A program made the position numbers and the translations under genes. This document shows, piece by piece, positions 10,022-21,469 of a DNA stretch of 35,298 nucleotides. Source of the DNA: a virus. The stretch covers positions 1 through 35,298 of IMG/VR virus record IMGVR_UViG_3300050821_001041, one strand, 5' to 3'. Under the pieces are notes generated by a model, which had not been told where the DNA came from, ran no database searches, and worked only from the letters and a program-made list of their open reading frames with translations. The first letter of the stretch is position 1. Each line of letters begins with the position of its first letter.

Positions 10022-10252
10022 ATGGATTACCGAGTCGAGGTAAAAGTAAAAAACAATAATATTCTAAAGCGCATTGCTGGCCTATGGTCTGCATATATGG
10101 GTCATCATATTGATTCGCTGGATGTAGCCAAAATGATGATTCTTTTAAAGGTGTCACGGGCAAAGCATAACAACCATAGAGACAGTTACGTTGATATTGT
10201 TGGCTATGTTGAATGTGCCGATCAGTTACTTAAACAAGGACAACCACAATGA
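10022..10252 (+). CDS. DUF6378-like small phage protein
   Basis: 76 aa, ATG 10022, with GGGAG nine bases upstream. The helix pair DVAKMMILLKVSRAKHN and the acidic DSYVDIVGYVECADQLL match the small DUF6378-type phage protein (M..KI.R...N..H.D.W.DI.GY). In relatives this motif is associated with an all-helical MazG-like fold, though it lacks the acidic metal cluster of active MazG. Role unknown. Its stop overlaps the next start as ATGA. Confidence 0.6.
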   Translation: MDYRVEVKVKNNNILKRIAGLWSAYMGHHIDSLDVAKMMILLKVSRAKHNNHRDSYVDIVGYVECADQLLKQGQPQ

Positions 10253-10875
10253 CACAAGGAAAATTTAAATTAACACCACCTCATGAATCAGAATGCACCG
10301 TCATTGGCGCAATGATTTTAGATTGCCAGCTTTACCCAATCGTTAAAGAGAACCTTTGCGAGAATGACTTCTATTTTAATAAGCACAAAAGAATTTTTCA
10401 TGTCATGGGTGAACTATGGAATAAGCACCAACATTTTGACGCGCCTATGATTGTCGATCAAATAGACTATGTAAAAGAAAGTGGCTTATTAGAAGAAGAC
10501 ATCTATGGATTAGCCAATGATTGCCCCTCATTAAAAAACATCCGCGCCCATGTGGATATCATTCGTGAGAAATCAGTTCAAAGACAATTGCTTAAAGTAG
10601 CCAATGAAATAGCAGAAGAAGCAGCCCATCCAAAAACAAATAACATCAAAGACATTTTGGACAAGGCAGAAGAAAGCGTCATGAAGTTAGCCGAAGCTTA
10701 CGAAATTAATATTTGCCCTGTTCAACATCGTTTAGTTTGTTTCATGGAAGAGTTTGCAGCCGAAATTAAAGCCACTGATTTAACCGTGGAATATATTAAA
10801 GATTGCATGTATGAAATGAACAAAGCTTTTGTCGATGTTATCGATCACCTCGAAGAAGAACACGAAGAAGAATAA
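10249..10875 (+). CDS. Stand-alone DnaB helicase N-terminal-domain protein
   Basis: 208 aa. Residues about 8-112 match the DnaB collar domain: PPHESECTVIGAMILD, DFYFNKHKRIFHVMGELW and NIRAHVDIIREKSVQRQLL. Residues about 113-150 match the DnaB linker helix (NIKDILDKAEESVMKLAEA). The RecA-like ATPase domain is absent; instead a new 60-residue acidic helical tail ends in EEEHEEE. A normal DnaB is over 400 residues. It cannot be a helicase by itself. It could join or cap the host DnaB ring, or occupy primase or loader binding sites. Coupled upstream by ATGA. Domain match is good; function inferred. Confidence 0.75.
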   Translation: MTQGKFKLTPPHESECTVIGAMILDCQLYPIVKENLCENDFYFNKHKRIFHVMGELWNKHQHFDAPMIVDQIDYVKESGLLEEDIYGLANDCPSLKNIRAHVDIIREKSVQRQLLKVANEIAEEAAHPKTNNIKDILDKAEESVMKLAEAYEINICPVQHRLVCFMEEFAAEIKATDLTVEYIKDCMYEMNKAFVDVIDHLEEEHEEE

Positions 10876-11295: not shown

Positions 11296-11530
11296 TCTGA
11301 ATAAAATGCGCTTAGGCGTATTGCGTGAATTAAAGAATGTTCATAAGTTCCTAGACAACATGGAACGCAGTGTTAAAACCAGAAATCCCCAAGCAATCCA
11401 AAAATCTTACATGTTCCTCGTTCACCTTGTGCGAGAAATGAATGAAGGGTGTCTCACGCCTGATTCAATTGCCCTTGATGTTGAGCTAGCAAAATTACTG
11501 GGAAATGTACAGGAAGATGAAGGGAGTTAA
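11288..11530 (+). CDS. Small helical early protein
   Basis: 80 aa; ATG 11288 overlaps the previous gene by eight bases. Helical with alternating charge (KMRLGVLRELKNVHKFLDNM, then SYMFLVHLVREMNEG), ending in an acidic tail. No recognised domain. Confidence 0.6.
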   Translation: MNDLNKMRLGVLRELKNVHKFLDNMERSVKTRNPQAIQKSYMFLVHLVREMNEGCLTPDSIALDVELAKLLGNVQEDEGS

Positions 11531-12500: not shown

Positions 12501-14681
12501 CTAATTTGTTGTTACCGTACAAGAACGCGCGACTAAAGTAGCTTTTGCCGCTAGTCCTGTGGAACTTGGTGTCGCAGAAGTTCCACCACTTAAGTTTACA
12601 GTTAAAGAACTCCATGCGGTTGTACCTCCAGAACCATTTAAATTAGCTAAAGAAACTAAAATACCATCGACACTAGCTTGAGTTAATGCCGCATTTGTTA
12701 ACGTAACATTACCTGCAATTTTTAATAACCCACTATTAAATGAAAATGTAGTTAGTCCTGTAGCAGTCGTACAACCAAACGAGCCACTATTAATATTTTG
12801 TAATGCAGGTAAACTAAATGAAGTTAAAGCACTTCCAACGGTTAAAGATAAAGAATTACATGAAGCTAATGAATTAAGATTAATACTACTAGCACTTACA
12901 GTATTTAATAAAATTTGTCCCGCACTAGCTAAAAGTGGAAAACTTACAGAAGTAGCCGCCGCAAAAGTACAGTTTAATGCTTGAGCAGTTATCATTGTTG
13001 TTAAAGCTGGAAAGGACACTGATGTCATGGCCGCCCATACTAAAGTAGTTCCTCCCATATATTGCAAGTTTGTAAAAGTAGATGATGTTAAATTTGGCGC
13101 AGTTAATACTAAATTTCCACCCATATATTGTAATGAAGGAAAACTTATTGATGTTCCATTCCAAGTATTTGTAATTGCTAATGATGAACCCACATACGCT
13201 AATGCCGGGAAACTTAACGTAGTTGCCGCAGGAAACATTGTAAATACAGTAAATACAGCTCCTATATATTTTAAATTTGCCATGCTAACTGTAGTAACAT
13301 TCGCACATGTAGCATTTAAATTACCTGAAACATTAACTAATGATGGTAAACTAAAACTTGTAAATCCAGCGTTACTATAAGTTCCACCAAAACTTCCATT
13401 GATATTAATAAGGGCAGGCATACTTAAACTTGTTAACGCCGCCATTGTGGGTGCCCAAGCCATATTAATATTTATTAATGAGGGAGCAGACAAAGAAGTT
13501 AAATTTGTGAAAGTACCACTTATAAATCCTCCTGTAATTGGAGTTTGTAAAAGAGTTTGAATACCACCTAAGTTTAAAGTATCTAAAAGTGGTTCTGAGC
13601 CATTAAAAATATTAAAATCCGCAATAAGCATCGAAGAATTAAAAGTAGAATTATAATATCCTGCGCCTTGCCAGAAAGTAAATAATTCCCAATTTATAGG
13701 AGCAACCACACCGTTTATTGTGGCACCTGTAACGGTATAAGAGGGGTTGACCACTAAATTGGGAGTAGTCAAATTAATATTAGTAGCAGAAAGTCCAGAT
13801 GGCAATGTAGTACTGATGCTTGGAACTGAACCAGCCGATGTAACCAAAACACCCGATGCAGCGGTTGCCAATCCTGAAACTGTTGTTCCGTTAGCTGCAT
13901 ACCAAGCCAACTGATTTATCAATCCTGAACTTACTATTCCCGATGCCGTTGCAGTTGTAGCCAATGTTCCGCTTGTAGGGAAAGTTACGTTTGTTGCAGC
14001 GGTGAAATTAAAAACCGCAGAAAATGCTCCAACGGTTGATAAGTTGCCAGCTAACGTAAGGGTGTTTGTTCCATTATTTACCCCGGTTCCTCCTCGTACT
14101 GGACTTAATGTTCCAGTCCATCCAAGAGTGATAGAAGTAGCTTGAAGTAACGCGGTTGCTGGCGTACCACCGAGTGTTATAGTTACGTTTGTGTCTGGCG
14201 TGGCCGTTAATGGGGAAGGTGTAACGGTTGGAATCATTGCGGTAGTTGCTAAGGTTCCAGATGTAGGAAAAGTAACATTAGTACTTGCTGTAAAATTAAA
14301 CGTTGCTGGAAATGCTCCAACGGTTGTTAAACTACCGGCTAAAGTTAATGTGTTAGCTCCATTATTTACACCTGTTCCACCATAAGCTGGGCTAATAATC
14401 GTACCATTCCAAGTTCCTGATGTAATCGTGCCAAGAGTAGTTATTGATGCTTGCCCCACATAATTAGCGGCAATATCTAGGATTGGATTTACGCCACCTG
14501 TTGAGGTGATGCGATTTGTCGTACCTGAAACACTTTCAACGAAGGTTCCAGTCAATAAGTCGAGGACTTGCTGAATAGTTATTTTGCGCGTCACAGGGCC
14601 GGGTAATTGATCCGCTGGGAATACGTCTGTTACTTGTGCGGACGTGGCCGCTGGTAAGGCACTAATCTCTATACCTGGCAT
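12501..14681 (-). CDS. Tail fibre with LRR-like (BspA-type) solenoid
   Basis: 726 aa. After an N-terminal segment (1-50), a module SPAYGGTGVNNGANTLTLAG through FPTSGTLATTA (about 97-148) is repeated with changes at 193-244, a known phage fibre module. Residues about 345-690 form an irregular repeat of about 22 residues, with units such as SFSLPSLVNVSGNL, SFPALAYVGSSLAI and SFPSLQYMGGNLVL. Leu/Phe, Pro and Gly positions match leucine-rich repeats of BspA or receptor-L type, so a right-handed solenoid is likely. A short closing module (QASVDGILVSLANLNGSG...) ends in CTVTTN. It is probably the receptor-binding fibre. Confidence 0.75.
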   Translation of the reverse strand: MPGIEISALPAATSAQVTDVFPADQLPGPVTRKITIQQVLDLLTGTFVESVSGTTNRITSTGGVNPILDIAANYVGQASITTLGTITSGTWNGTIISPAYGGTGVNNGANTLTLAGSLTTVGAFPATFNFTASTNVTFPTSGTLATTAMIPTVTPSPLTATPDTNVTITLGGTPATALLQATSITLGWTGTLSPVRGGTGVNNGTNTLTLAGNLSTVGAFSAVFNFTAATNVTFPTSGTLATTATASGIVSSGLINQLAWYAANGTTVSGLATAASGVLVTSAGSVPSISTTLPSGLSATNINLTTPNLVVNPSYTVTGATINGVVAPINWELFTFWQGAGYYNSTFNSSMLIADFNIFNGSEPLLDTLNLGGIQTLLQTPITGGFISGTFTNLTSLSAPSLININMAWAPTMAALTSLSMPALININGSFGGTYSNAGFTSFSLPSLVNVSGNLNATCANVTTVSMANLKYIGAVFTVFTMFPAATTLSFPALAYVGSSLAITNTWNGTSISFPSLQYMGGNLVLTAPNLTSSTFTNLQYMGGTTLVWAAMTSVSFPALTTMITAQALNCTFAAATSVSFPLLASAGQILLNTVSASSINLNSLASCNSLSLTVGSALTSFSLPALQNINSGSFGCTTATGLTTFSFNSGLLKIAGNVTLTNAALTQASVDGILVSLANLNGSGGTTAWSSLTVNLSGGTSATPSSTGLAAKATLVARSCTVTTN

Positions 14682-17843: not shown

Positions 17844-19478
17844 TTATTTGCTCTTACCAAAAAGCTCATTGTAAAAACCTAAAGCCCCAGCTCCTAAAGC
17901 ACTTCCTGTGCCTATTCCTGCTAGATAAGGGTGACTCTTAACCAATTTTCTCATTCGCATTGCATTATGATATTTACCACGCTTTGCATAAAATGCTCTC
18001 TTAGATAATGAATTTACTAATTCATCAGGAGAAGATTCACCGCGCATAAACTCATTGATGGCCTTATTCTTATAAGGAACCACTTCGTTTCGATAACCTT
18101 CTTGAAGCTCGCCATATTTTTGCTTCATTCCCTCATGTATCTTACCATCAGGGCCTTTAAACATATTGTTATTAATGCTGTCAATTGCATTATTTACAGC
18201 ACCCAATTGTTGGCGTTCAGCAGTTCGCAATGTAGTTAGTTTATCTAAATCTCGCTTAATACGTAATAGGTCACTTTTTGCATTGTGCGCATTTTGCAAG
18301 GTGGGATTAGCTTCAAAGTCTTCCAATCCTTTAATTCCACGACCGGGAGAATATTTTTTGATTGTTTCCATATCTATATCAATCAAATTTTTAGGTTTTG
18401 GCTTAGAAATTAATTTGACTACCGGACTTTCTTCATCAATAGATTCAAATCTTTTGTATGGCTCTCCAAGATATTCTCCATTAACTTCTTTAACATGGGG
18501 ATTGTATTCAAATTTATACCCTTCTTTTTCCAGAGATTTATATAATTTCATTGCATCATGTGATACAACGCTATCTGATTCAAAACCTAATCCTTTTTCA
18601 AGAGCGTCATTAATTGCTTCTTTATAAAGTGCTTTTCCAATGCCTTTTCCACGATGCTTTTCTTCAACAACAGCGTGTATAACTCGGGCATTATTTCCAT
18701 TTTTTATTAATCCTATATTATTAGTAGGTAATTCTGTATTTCCAGCATTATGTGAAACACCAAATTGATTACCACTTTCATATTTTTCAAAAGGAATATT
18801 TGCTTGATTATTTCCTCTAGTATGTGATAAATCTCCTAGTCCTTCTGCCTCGGATTCTTTCCACAAGTTTTCATAACGATTTCCATATTCTCCAATATTT
18901 TTTTCACGTGTTTTCAAAACATCTTTGGCAATATTTTTAGCTGTAAGATTTAAAGGATTTAAAGCTCCAGCTACCTTTCCAGCAGGAATAATATTTGTAG
19001 CATTTCTTACCAATCCTCTCGTCAATGCATCTCCGGGGTTCATTTCTTTGCCCGTGAATTGGTCTAATGCGCCGGATATGTCATCTTGATAAGGAATTTT
19101 ATCCGCCCATCCTTTAGGTAATAGGTTAAGACGCTTCTCTAAGTAGTTAGCTATGCCATGAGGTGCATTAAGCGTGTTATGCCCAAGCTCTGCAAGACCT
19201 GCAATCACGTTTTTACTGCGTGTGATCGGATGTCTCAATCCATTAATTGGGTTTAAAAAGGCTGGAACTTCCGTCTTTGCCTTTTCCCAATACTCAGGTG
19301 CACTTTCAAGCGCACCCTTTCCGGCATTCAATAAATCCTCACCAACCCTGAAAGGTGCATACTTTGCTGCTTGACCAATACTTTCTTCCGGTTCTTCCAT
19401 TTCTAAGAAGTCTCGGGGTTGGTAAGTTTGCTTTGCAGGATTGTAACTACCTTCTAAAAAATCGCGTGGCGTTCCCAT
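17844..19478 (-). CDS. Putative ejected virion protein with embedded GNAT acetyltransferase
   Basis: 544 aa, in the position of the P22 gp16/gp20 ejection proteins. N-terminal about 1-190 and C-terminal about 370-515 are helical and charged, as in internal virion proteins, with a duplicated PRDFLE (4-9, 21-26) and a Gly/Ala-rich hydrophobic C-terminus (AGIGTGSALGAGALGFY) that could cross a membrane. Residues about 255-328 are a compact GNAT core: VIHAVVEEKHRGKGIGKALY with the acetyl-CoA loop RGKGIG (276-281), then an SHDAMKLYKSLEKEGYKFEY end strand. This stretch is more AT-rich than the flanks. Acetyl-CoA binding is predicted; the target is unknown. Coupled to the previous gene by TAATG. Confidence 0.7.
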   Translation of the reverse strand: MGTPRDFLEGSYNPAKQTYQPRDFLEMEEPEESIGQAAKYAPFRVGEDLLNAGKGALESAPEYWEKAKTEVPAFLNPINGLRHPITRSKNVIAGLAELGHNTLNAPHGIANYLEKRLNLLPKGWADKIPYQDDISGALDQFTGKEMNPGDALTRGLVRNATNIIPAGKVAGALNPLNLTAKNIAKDVLKTREKNIGEYGNRYENLWKESEAEGLGDLSHTRGNNQANIPFEKYESGNQFGVSHNAGNTELPTNNIGLIKNGNNARVIHAVVEEKHRGKGIGKALYKEAINDALEKGLGFESDSVVSHDAMKLYKSLEKEGYKFEYNPHVKEVNGEYLGEPYKRFESIDEESPVVKLISKPKPKNLIDIDMETIKKYSPGRGIKGLEDFEANPTLQNAHNAKSDLLRIKRDLDKLTTLRTAERQQLGAVNNAIDSINNNMFKGPDGKIHEGMKQKYGELQEGYRNEVVPYKNKAINEFMRGESSPDELVNSLSKRAFYAKRGKYHNAMRMRKLVKSHPYLAGIGTGSALGAGALGFYNELFGKSK

Positions 19479-20827
19479 TACAGTACTCCTTGCGCTTTTA
19501 ATTTCTTCCTGATTTCCGCAGGTGATGTTTTGTATTTTTCAGCCATATACTTGATGTCTTCTTCCGTAGGTTTATCACGCAATAATTCATCAGTTCGCTT
19601 CTCAATAGCACTTACATCGACCATTTTGTTTGCTTGCTTAACAGCATCAGATAGATTGACGCCTTTATCAAGCAACCCTGAGATAATATTGTTCTTCTTT
19701 TCTGCAATGTCATGAAGTGCAATAGCTGATTTTAGTTTACCTTCGGCGACATGAATTGGATCGCTTGGGCTAATCTTTTGACGTTGCGCTAAGTCAAACT
19801 CACGCACCAACGGCTTACCACTGAACCCTTGGACAGTTGATGCAATAAAACTTTCAGAAGTCGATAAAAAGTCACCAATAAGTTTCTTTTGCGCAGGGGT
19901 TCCGGTCTTCATCAAATAATTTAATTGCTTATCTTGGAAGAAAGGAATCTTATTGCGCATTTCTTGAAACTCAGGATTTTTAATAATATCAGTCATACGA
20001 CCCAATACGGCACCTGAATGACTTAAGCCAAGTTGACTGTCGCCAATCTCTTGTTGCGCCTTGGCACGATATTTTCCGGCCTCTTCGCCTTGCTTTTCTT
20101 CGCCTTTAAATCGGCCTGTTTTCTCAGCCCATGTGGGTTCAGTTTCTTCAATCTGAACATCTTCATTAGGCGTTTGAACATCTTCCTCATAAACAGGATT
20201 GCCATTCTTGTCATACCATTGTTGACCTTCAACAGTGACACCACCTTTTGGCCTTTTTCCAGGAACAGCATTCATTGCTGGATTACCCATTGGCTGTTCA
20301 GGAGCTTGTGGCTGTCCTTGGGGCATTTGTTGCTGTTGAGGCATTTGTGGCATTGCTTGAGCCGCTTGCGCAAATGGATTGTTTCCTTGCCCTTGGCTTT
20401 GGCCTTGTCCAAGAAAACCTTTAAGGGCATTCTTTAAGTAGCCAGCAAAGTTATTGGTCGAAGGTTGGCCAACACCTGTATGTTGTGGTGCTTGAGCTTG
20501 TGGCATCTGTGCTAAAGGGTTTCCAGAATTATTAACACCTGCCCGAGAGACCAATCCTAGGATTTGTTTTTTCTGGTCTTCTGACATGTTCGCCAAGGCA
20601 CCTTCATTGCCTAAAAGTTTCGATAGGAATTGTGGCCCCATCAAATTTGCATAGGCAAGCTTACTCGCTGCTTCCGCTTGTGAGGTTAAAGGCATGTATT
20701 GAGCTTTGATTTGGTTAATCTTCTTCTCAATCATTGCATTATGTAAGGCGTTAATCCCACCCATAGCAGTGACCAAACCACCACCGGGGCCAGTATCGGG
20801 AACAACTCTTGGTAATGGAAGTGCCAT
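19478..20827 (-). CDS. Internal virion/DNA ejection protein
   Basis: 449 aa. An N-terminal Gly/Pro stretch and helix (VTAMGGINALHNAMIEKKIN), then a Gln/Pro/Met-rich low-complexity linker (about 105-185), then long helices with many charged residues (about 215-449) ending in KKLKAQGVL. This composition and place, second of three genes after the tail hub, match P22-type ejection proteins that leave the capsid with DNA and form a conduit through the envelope. No enzymatic motif is visible. Confidence 0.6.
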   Translation of the reverse strand: MALPLPRVVPDTGPGGGLVTAMGGINALHNAMIEKKINQIKAQYMPLTSQAEAASKLAYANLMGPQFLSKLLGNEGALANMSEDQKKQILGLVSRAGVNNSGNPLAQMPQAQAPQHTGVGQPSTNNFAGYLKNALKGFLGQGQSQGQGNNPFAQAAQAMPQMPQQQQMPQGQPQAPEQPMGNPAMNAVPGKRPKGGVTVEGQQWYDKNGNPVYEEDVQTPNEDVQIEETEPTWAEKTGRFKGEEKQGEEAGKYRAKAQQEIGDSQLGLSHSGAVLGRMTDIIKNPEFQEMRNKIPFFQDKQLNYLMKTGTPAQKKLIGDFLSTSESFIASTVQGFSGKPLVREFDLAQRQKISPSDPIHVAEGKLKSAIALHDIAEKKNNIISGLLDKGVNLSDAVKQANKMVDVSAIEKRTDELLRDKPTEEDIKYMAEKYKTSPAEIRKKLKAQGVL

Positions 20828-20836
20828 TTTATATCC

Positions 20837-21442
20837 TTATAAAAAGCTGCCGAGCATACTTAATCCGCCGCCAATGGTGTTCCAGAAGTCATTTTTCTTT
20901 CCTGCTTCCTTCCCATAGGCTGCTTCACCCATTTTTCCGCCCATTTGATTGTACATATCGGTCAATGAATTAGCCGCGTTTTGACCACCGTTTTTCAAAT
21001 CTTTTTGACCTTCCCCATATTGCGTATTAATTCCCAATACGTTTTGCAGCCAAGAGTTCATATCACCAGAAGCAATTTGACCAGCGTTTTGCATTTGTTG
21101 CTGCATTAATGCGCTACTTCCCATCATACCACTAGCGGACGCTGAGTTATTCCCGGCATTCATTGCTTGCTGTTGAAGCATATGCGCATAAGGGCTTTCT
21201 TGGTAATTACCCATTAAGTTATTAATAAAACCGCTTGGGTCTTTCTGGCCTTTTAGCCATTCCTGATAATTTCCAAGACCTTCTTTACCTGCATCTAAGT
21301 AAGGTTGTTGTACTCCTTGACCCATTTGCATGTACTTTTGGTATTGCTCCATAGCTTTGTCATAGGGTTTGCCGGAGTCGCCAAACATGCCACCCAAAAA
21401 CCCACCAAGGCCACTTCCAAACTGTCCGCTATCGAAAGCCAT
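20837..21442 (-). CDS. Internal virion/DNA ejection protein (gp7-like position)
   Basis: 201 aa from ATG 21442, with AAGGA eight bases upstream, the same start context as the 17818 gene; a GTG six bases earlier is also in frame. Gly-, Met- and Gln-rich: FGSGLGGFLGGMFGD at the start, a YDKAMEQYQKYMQMGQGVQQ helix, a MLQQQAMNAGNNSASASGMM stretch and a hydrophobic C-terminus (FWNTIGGGLSMLGSFL). Small Gly/Ala/Met-rich ejection proteins are typical first members of the P22 set. Probably packaged and injected. Confidence 0.6.
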   Translation of the reverse strand: MAFDSGQFGSGLGGFLGGMFGDSGKPYDKAMEQYQKYMQMGQGVQQPYLDAGKEGLGNYQEWLKGQKDPSGFINNLMGNYQESPYAHMLQQQAMNAGNNSASASGMMGSSALMQQQMQNAGQIASGDMNSWLQNVLGINTQYGEGQKDLKNGGQNAANSLTDMYNQMGGKMGEAAYGKEAGKKNDFWNTIGGGLSMLGSFL

Positions 21443-21469
21443 AGTCACATTCCTTGTGCTAATTAATCG

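Follow-up and report, generated by a model that had tools for sequence, protein, structure and literature searches.

The third ejection-cluster gene and its acetyltransferase domain

The window, i.e., the whole stretch of 35,298 nt of viral DNA analysed here (IMG/VR record IMGVR_UViG_3300050821_001041), carries a P22-like head gene cluster on its minus strand. The gene order is large terminase, P22-type portal (PF16510, 1.7e-102), scaffold, P22-type coat (PF11651), a gp4-like gene, head closure Hc3 (gp10-like), a small gene, a gp7-like gene, a gene at the gp20 position and a gene encoding a GNAT (acetyltransferase) domain, which is followed by tail-fibre-type genes. The features of the ejection cluster are as follows:

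20837-21448, minus strand: gp7-like DNA ejection protein, 203 aa (phrog_598, "DNA ejection", E 8.5e-7)
19478-20827, minus strand: ejection-cluster gene assigned to the gp20 position by its place, 449 aa, with a one-base overlap between its stop and the start of the GNAT gene
17844-19478, minus strand: third ejection-cluster gene (P22 gene 16 position), 544 aa, with a built-in GNAT (ORF, gene order, gp7-like PHROG, family alignments, weak gp16 profile link)
18837-19478, minus strand: N-terminal block, residues 1-214, mostly helical, common to enzyme-less relatives (alignment with L001, L021 and others; low-confidence AlphaFold2 model)
18402-18770, minus strand: GNAT fold as modelled, residues about 237-359 (AlphaFold2, Foldseek)
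18636-18653, minus strand: acetyl-CoA pyrophosphate loop RGKGIG, residues 276-281 (RGKGxG invariant with the Drulisvirus homologues)
18561-18578, minus strand: SDSVVS motif, residues 301-306 (SDSxV common to the Drulisvirus domains)
18423-18437, minus strand: DEESP motif at the domain end, residues 348-352 (DExSP common to the Drulisvirus internal core proteins)
17844-18383, minus strand: C-terminal block, residues 366-544 plus stop, its C-terminal segment YLAGIGTGSALGAGALGFY being mildly hydrophobic (alignment, linker survey, sequence)

The third gene is a continuous ORF of 544 codons and starts on the last base of the stop codon of the gp20-position gene (TAATG). The gene order is alike in P22, in which the end of gene 20 and the start of gene 16 both lie at 11484, and the order gp7, gp20, third gene is found again in those coat-related contigs in which it could be read. 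In P22, gp7, gp16 and gp20 are injected proteins (PMC8402733), and an inner-membrane location has been proposed for gp16 (PMC10883804). The similarity of the window gene's family to P22-type gp16 appears weak but specific: in hhalign, the family profile matched a five-sequence gp16 profile weakly over the C-terminal block (E 6.6e-4, probability 27%), the gp20- and gp7-position families used as controls giving 0.2-0.3, and in hmmsearch P22 gp16 came first among six P22 proteins (E 4.8e-4 in this tiny set). Because this similarity is weak, we infer packaging and ejection of the 544-aa protein mainly from position, with the profile link in addition. P22 gp16 (Lederbergvirus) resembles the window gene in position and in the one-base overlap with gene 20, with a weak profile similarity over the C-terminal block, but it has 609 aa and no enzyme domain, whereas the window-family proteins with the linker slot described below are highly diverged and about 300-450 aa long when empty.

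The initial annotation, made from the letters alone, had placed a GNAT core with the loop RGKGIG within residues about 255-328 of a protein at a P22 ejection-protein position; this observation is confirmed, and the interpretation built on it is partly supported. Four Pfam GNAT families matched the domain with E values of 5e-6 to 4e-5, three of them above cutoff at residues 255-316, namely PF13508 (residues 262-316, 27.3 bits, cutoff 27), PF00583 (261-314, 26.8, cutoff 20.7) and PF13673 (255-313, 23.9, cutoff 23.6), and PF14542 slightly under its curated cutoff. The loop fits the R/Q-x-x-G-x-G/A acetyl-CoA loop of the GNAT superfamily. An AlphaFold2 model of residues 200-366, built on a four-row alignment, reached pLDDT values of 73-92 over residues 250-359 (10-residue-block means) and showed, in order, three strands, a helix, short strands, a helix and more strands. 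The initial annotation had made its claim depend on a predicted GNAT fold, and this fold was obtained: Foldseek against the PDB gave 90 matches at E<=0.001, the matches listed being acetyltransferases at probability 1.00 and the top GNATs reaching E 5e-5. PDB GNATs were reached by sequence too, with the domain profile, at about 1e-4. The best viral structural match in BFVD was the GNAT within the 895-aa A0A516MAL9 (E 2.7e-8, rmsd 2.8), followed by several GNATs within proteins of 840-1290 aa. The GNAT domain of the 544-aa protein is genuine. Residues 200-236, on the N-terminal (acceptor) side of the fold, had pLDDT values below 50, and in the modelled domain the acceptor-side elements could be reduced.

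The full-length AlphaFold2 model of the protein was of low confidence and readable only as mostly helical. The flanking blocks matched no PHROG or Pfam family and no enzyme or LPD domain, so the GNAT alone, rather than two or more disparate activity domains, was recognisable in the protein.

Empty alleles, the mosaic tract and the linker junction

A search for relatives lacking the domain, which the initial annotation had proposed as a way to map the insertion ends, was successful. The same gene is present in three metagenomic contigs (L001-L003) as a 402-aa form without the GNAT, and comparison with this form delimits the following features:

18384-18818, minus strand: 435-nt insert, residues about 221-365, missing from L001-L003 and other slot-type relatives (DNA alignment with the empty allele, linker survey)
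18261-19280: diverged mosaic tract around the insert; identity to L002 is about 78% on the 5' side of the insert and 69% on the 3' side, and the outer flanks are nearly identical

The insert corresponds to gene nucleotides about 661-1095. The gene is nearly 100% identical to the empty allele in its first roughly 190 nt and again from about nt 1180 onwards, the outer flanks of the empty alleles reaching up to 100%, and the tract around the insert covers roughly 1 kb at about 70-78% identity (about 78% and 69% in the direct flanks). Because the diverged tract lies between near-identical ends, it bears the mark of a divergent allele brought in by homologous exchange at 18261-19280, and such an allele probably carried the GNAT with it. 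Since the insert sits inside divergent sequence, we did not retain the reading of a simple in-situ insertion. None of the relatives found so far was the donor of the divergent allele. The more distant relatives L004, L009, L010 and L024-L031 are also without the GNAT, which makes gain the parsimonious direction of change. The later acquisition proposed by the initial annotation thus stands with regard to the flanking protein, given the empty alleles in close and distant relatives, but as a recombined stretch of a divergent allele and not as a clean insertion in place.

The same proposal had been based on local AT-richness. The insert has a GC of 0.305 and a GC3 of 0.113, and 0 of 3497 same-length stretches in the other late-strand genes were as low in GC. 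However, the empty relatives of the gene are also AT-rich at times (gene GC 0.32-0.42, GC3 0.13-0.30) and can come near the insert in this respect; low GC alone is therefore no proof of a foreign source, and this argument was set aside. Within the gp20-position gene, another mosaic exchange is seen at 20481-20660 of the window, where identity to L002 falls to 40-73% between nearly identical flanks.

The linker between the two blocks was surveyed in 60 distinct third-ejection proteins, collected from a coat-protein scan (80 related contigs taken in out of 202 coat relatives matched) and a gene-family scan (47 loci). Both blocks were present in 41 of the 60, and in 38 of these 41 the linker comprised 13-42 aa. 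The outliers were the window (171 aa, GNAT), L099 (142 aa; the same contig as L154) and L172 (204 aa, with a different C-terminal family). Since one of the 60 distinct proteins carries a GNAT, the domain is a rare accessory in this family; Pfam scans gave no other GNAT in the third-ejection proteins of the relatives. A third-ejection-type protein of 936 aa with a very long charged coiled-coil-like middle is encoded at L164:3980-6790.

The L099 protein carries a different insert at the junction used by the window GNAT, directly ahead of the DVNPQLIED/IDIDMETIKK helix:

L099:14031-15437 (= L154): third ejection protein with an insert beginning NLYHGTSEDFANKILENGL... (alignment, linker survey)

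In this insert, the matches to Pfam KptA/Tpt1 (0.058) and PARP (0.076) were both sub-threshold, and the PDB and PHROG searches pointed to RNA 2'-phosphotransferase (KptA, 0.033; PHROG 5470, 0.0035). On account of these four weak concordant matches and of an HGT motif, an ADP-ribosyltransferase (ART)/KptA-type fold is probable; the assignment is tentative, as no homologue of the insert was found in phages or plasmids. The linker of the third ejection protein thus seems to serve as a loading bay for enzymes that are delivered when infection starts.

Related domains and known systems

A search of 50,697 phage records matched the window GNAT at E below 0.01 only inside Drulisvirus (Autographiviridae) internal virion (core) proteins, which carry an endolysin domain, in SFN6B, ZH5, myPSH1235 and KpV48 (E 7e-5 to 4e-3), the SFN6B database record itself annotating an N-acyltransferase domain there. 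Scanning of viral contigs with the GNAT alignments A1 and A4 added no match beyond the same three Drulisvirus records, and direct tblastn of the whole 544-aa protein against phages gave none. In bacterial genomes, the GNAT scan gave just short generic GNAT motif matches in varied phyla, and a scan for the gene-16 family gave no match; in plasmids, the GNAT scan gave one weak match. The window and Drulisvirus domains have RGKGxG, SDSxV and the C-terminal DExSP in common at 25-34% identity, and the Tyr of LYKSL in the window is Trp in the Drulisvirus homologues.

The domain is missing from most relatives in Drulisvirus as well. The three GNAT-bearing core proteins read have 1420 aa, and those of K1-1, KpV71 and PSK2 have 1232 aa and are without just the GNAT part; of 250 records matched by the SFN6B segment, seven did so over most of the segment and nearly all of the others covered the flank only. 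The Drulisvirus carrier is of T7 gp16 type and unrelated to the window protein, and the context of the insert differs; the Drulisvirus insertion is independent of, and parallel to, that in the window. These carriers are Klebsiella/Shigella phages, and the GNAT-bearing core proteins of L011/L018 (Shigella phage SFN6B), L012 and L013 would allow the same question to be addressed in cultured, tractable phages.

That injected phage proteins can contain enzymes, GNATs included, has already been published: GNATs occur within the injected polyvalent proteins of phages and conjugative elements, are of RimI-like type and probably modify proteins (Iyer et al., 2017, PMC5512222). These polyvalent proteins share with the window a GNAT, a late-virion-gene setting and predicted injection, and ART domains are another typical member, but they are larger and hold several enzymatic and LPD domains, whereas the window has one enzyme in a short P22-type ejection protein. 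In the P22-coat phages BA3, VvAW1 and 41E34.2, a giant protein lies at the gene-16 position, annotated as DarB-like in VvAW1 and with methyltransferase and LPD38 matches in the two that were scanned, BA3 and 41E34.2:

L042:22266-30161 and L045:11719-19725: methyltransferase/LPD38 polyvalent protein, 2631-2668 aa, at the gene-16 position of P22-coat phages

Like the window gene, these giants are enzyme-bearing proteins behind a gp7-like ejection gene, but at 2600-3600 aa and with a methyltransferase they replace rather than extend the gp16-type protein. The candidate phrog_37402 (2639 aa, weak GNAT match) was rejected as a giant of the BA3 type; BA3 matches phrog_15406, with methyltransferase and LPD38 and no GNAT. 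AcrVA5 is a GNAT anti-CRISPR (PMC9114340), a stand-alone protein of mobile elements that disarms the defence enzyme Cas12a by acetylation; its likeness to the window is one of kind, not drawn from sequence. In Xanthomonas phage PBR31 (P22-coat), an annotated acetyltransferase lies just upstream of the internal proteins (L044:16846-17217); it had no Pfam or PHROG match. Domain swapping among ejection proteins has been reviewed, and the term "acetyl" does not occur in that review (PMC8954989). The new elements are a P22-type ejection protein with a single GNAT, an empty site at base level, a junction with two unrelated inserts and the independent Drulisvirus case.

Possible action at the start of infection

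The explanation that we favour, and regard as fairly probable, is that a P22-like podophage carries an exchangeable GNAT cargo in its third ejection protein, which is ejected with the DNA and acetylates near it. In this mechanism, the module would occupy the linker between the N-terminal and C-terminal blocks as an exchangeable cargo, most relatives having a short empty linker, the window a GNAT and L099 a probable ADP-ribosyltransferase/KptA fold. The virion would contain the third ejection protein and eject it, together with the other two, ahead of the DNA, and the linker of the third protein would finish on the cytoplasmic side of the inner membrane, with acetyl-CoA at hand. The tethered putative enzyme would acetylate a host protein (or another amine) beside the DNA as it enters; a factor of host defence or one related to RNA polymerase would be the most plausible target, whereas the initial annotation had also suggested toxin targets. 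Acetyl-CoA, needed by the GNAT, and NAD+, needed by an ART, are cytoplasmic, and for this reason we infer that the junction faces the cytoplasm after ejection. If ejected, the GNAT-bearing protein probably passes the portal channel unfolded, which counts against this explanation, as do the weak gp16 similarity, the rarity of the domain among the relatives and the low-confidence acceptor side of its fold.

It is also conceivable, though unlikely, that the GNAT acts late in the producing cell and acetylates a virion or host protein during assembly. A GNAT gene adjoining internal virion proteins has been equated with T7 gp13, for which a role in morphogenesis has been suggested (PMC6775973); its association with the ejection cluster is like that of the window GNAT, the PBR31 gene is placed similarly, and acetyl-CoA is plentiful in the cell when a late gene is expressed. 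However, both of these cases are separate genes, whereas in the window and in Drulisvirus the GNAT is fused inside an ejection-type protein, which would be odd for a late soluble enzyme, and close relatives evidently manage without the domain. No T7 gp13-type Pfam family matched the 544-aa protein, the scan giving just Acetyltransf_1/7/10/CG.

That the inserted fold is no longer an enzyme and serves as a spacer, binding or assembly module is less likely again. The seemingly reduced N-terminal region of the model and the rarity of the domain in the family agree with this, and other inserts are tolerated, e.g., the long middle of the L164 protein; against it, the domain has kept an intact RGKGIG loop and intact flanking motifs, which it has in common with the Drulisvirus domains at so low an identity, which suggests that acetyl-CoA binding is retained, and the L099 insert in the same slot is enzyme-like too. 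It is improbable that the third gene is a non-structural gene placed there by chance: its flanking blocks have no assigned family and its gp16 link is weak, but the recurring gene order, the translational overlap with the gp20-position gene, the helical make-up and the ejection or DarB-like proteins at the same position in other P22-coat phages speak for an ejected virion protein. A chance motif or contig misassembly, to which the restriction of the GNAT to one contig might point, is scarcely credible in view of several independent GNAT models and fold matches, a continuous ORF, a coherent mosaic pattern and an in-frame insertion at the junction also used in L099.

Beyond the favoured explanation of a GNAT cargo ejected with the DNA, the junction may be a dedicated exchangeable cargo slot that brings single cofactor-dependent enzymes into the cytoplasm with the DNA, a trick that Drulisvirus would have evolved independently; this wider proposal is plausible but falls short of being probable. 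Further enzymes, beyond the GNAT and ADP-ribosyltransferase types, would then probably be delivered via the slot. Which phage proteins are active within seconds of the start of infection, ahead of phage gene expression, is a long-standing question, and it can be tested directly with a natural pair of ejection-protein alleles of which one has an enzyme and the other has none: since the empty form evidently works as a conduit, a phenotype of the filled form could be attributed to the enzyme. The slot shows a place at which an ejection protein can accommodate an additional folded domain, and its use by different enzymes would be a natural marker of topology, given where their cofactors are found. 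If the cargo-slot reading is true, the slot marks the cytoplasm-facing part of a gp16-type conduit.

Elsewhere in the window, a 726-aa late protein (12501-14681) matches L001:10349-11089 (246 aa) at its N-terminus, and its C-terminal part is different and repeat-rich (leucine-rich-repeat-like) and looks like a swapped receptor-binding end. By eye, a 208-aa early protein (10249-10875) resembles just the N-terminal part of a replicative DnaB-type helicase, with no ATPase part, and L001 has a similar ORF of 203 aa.
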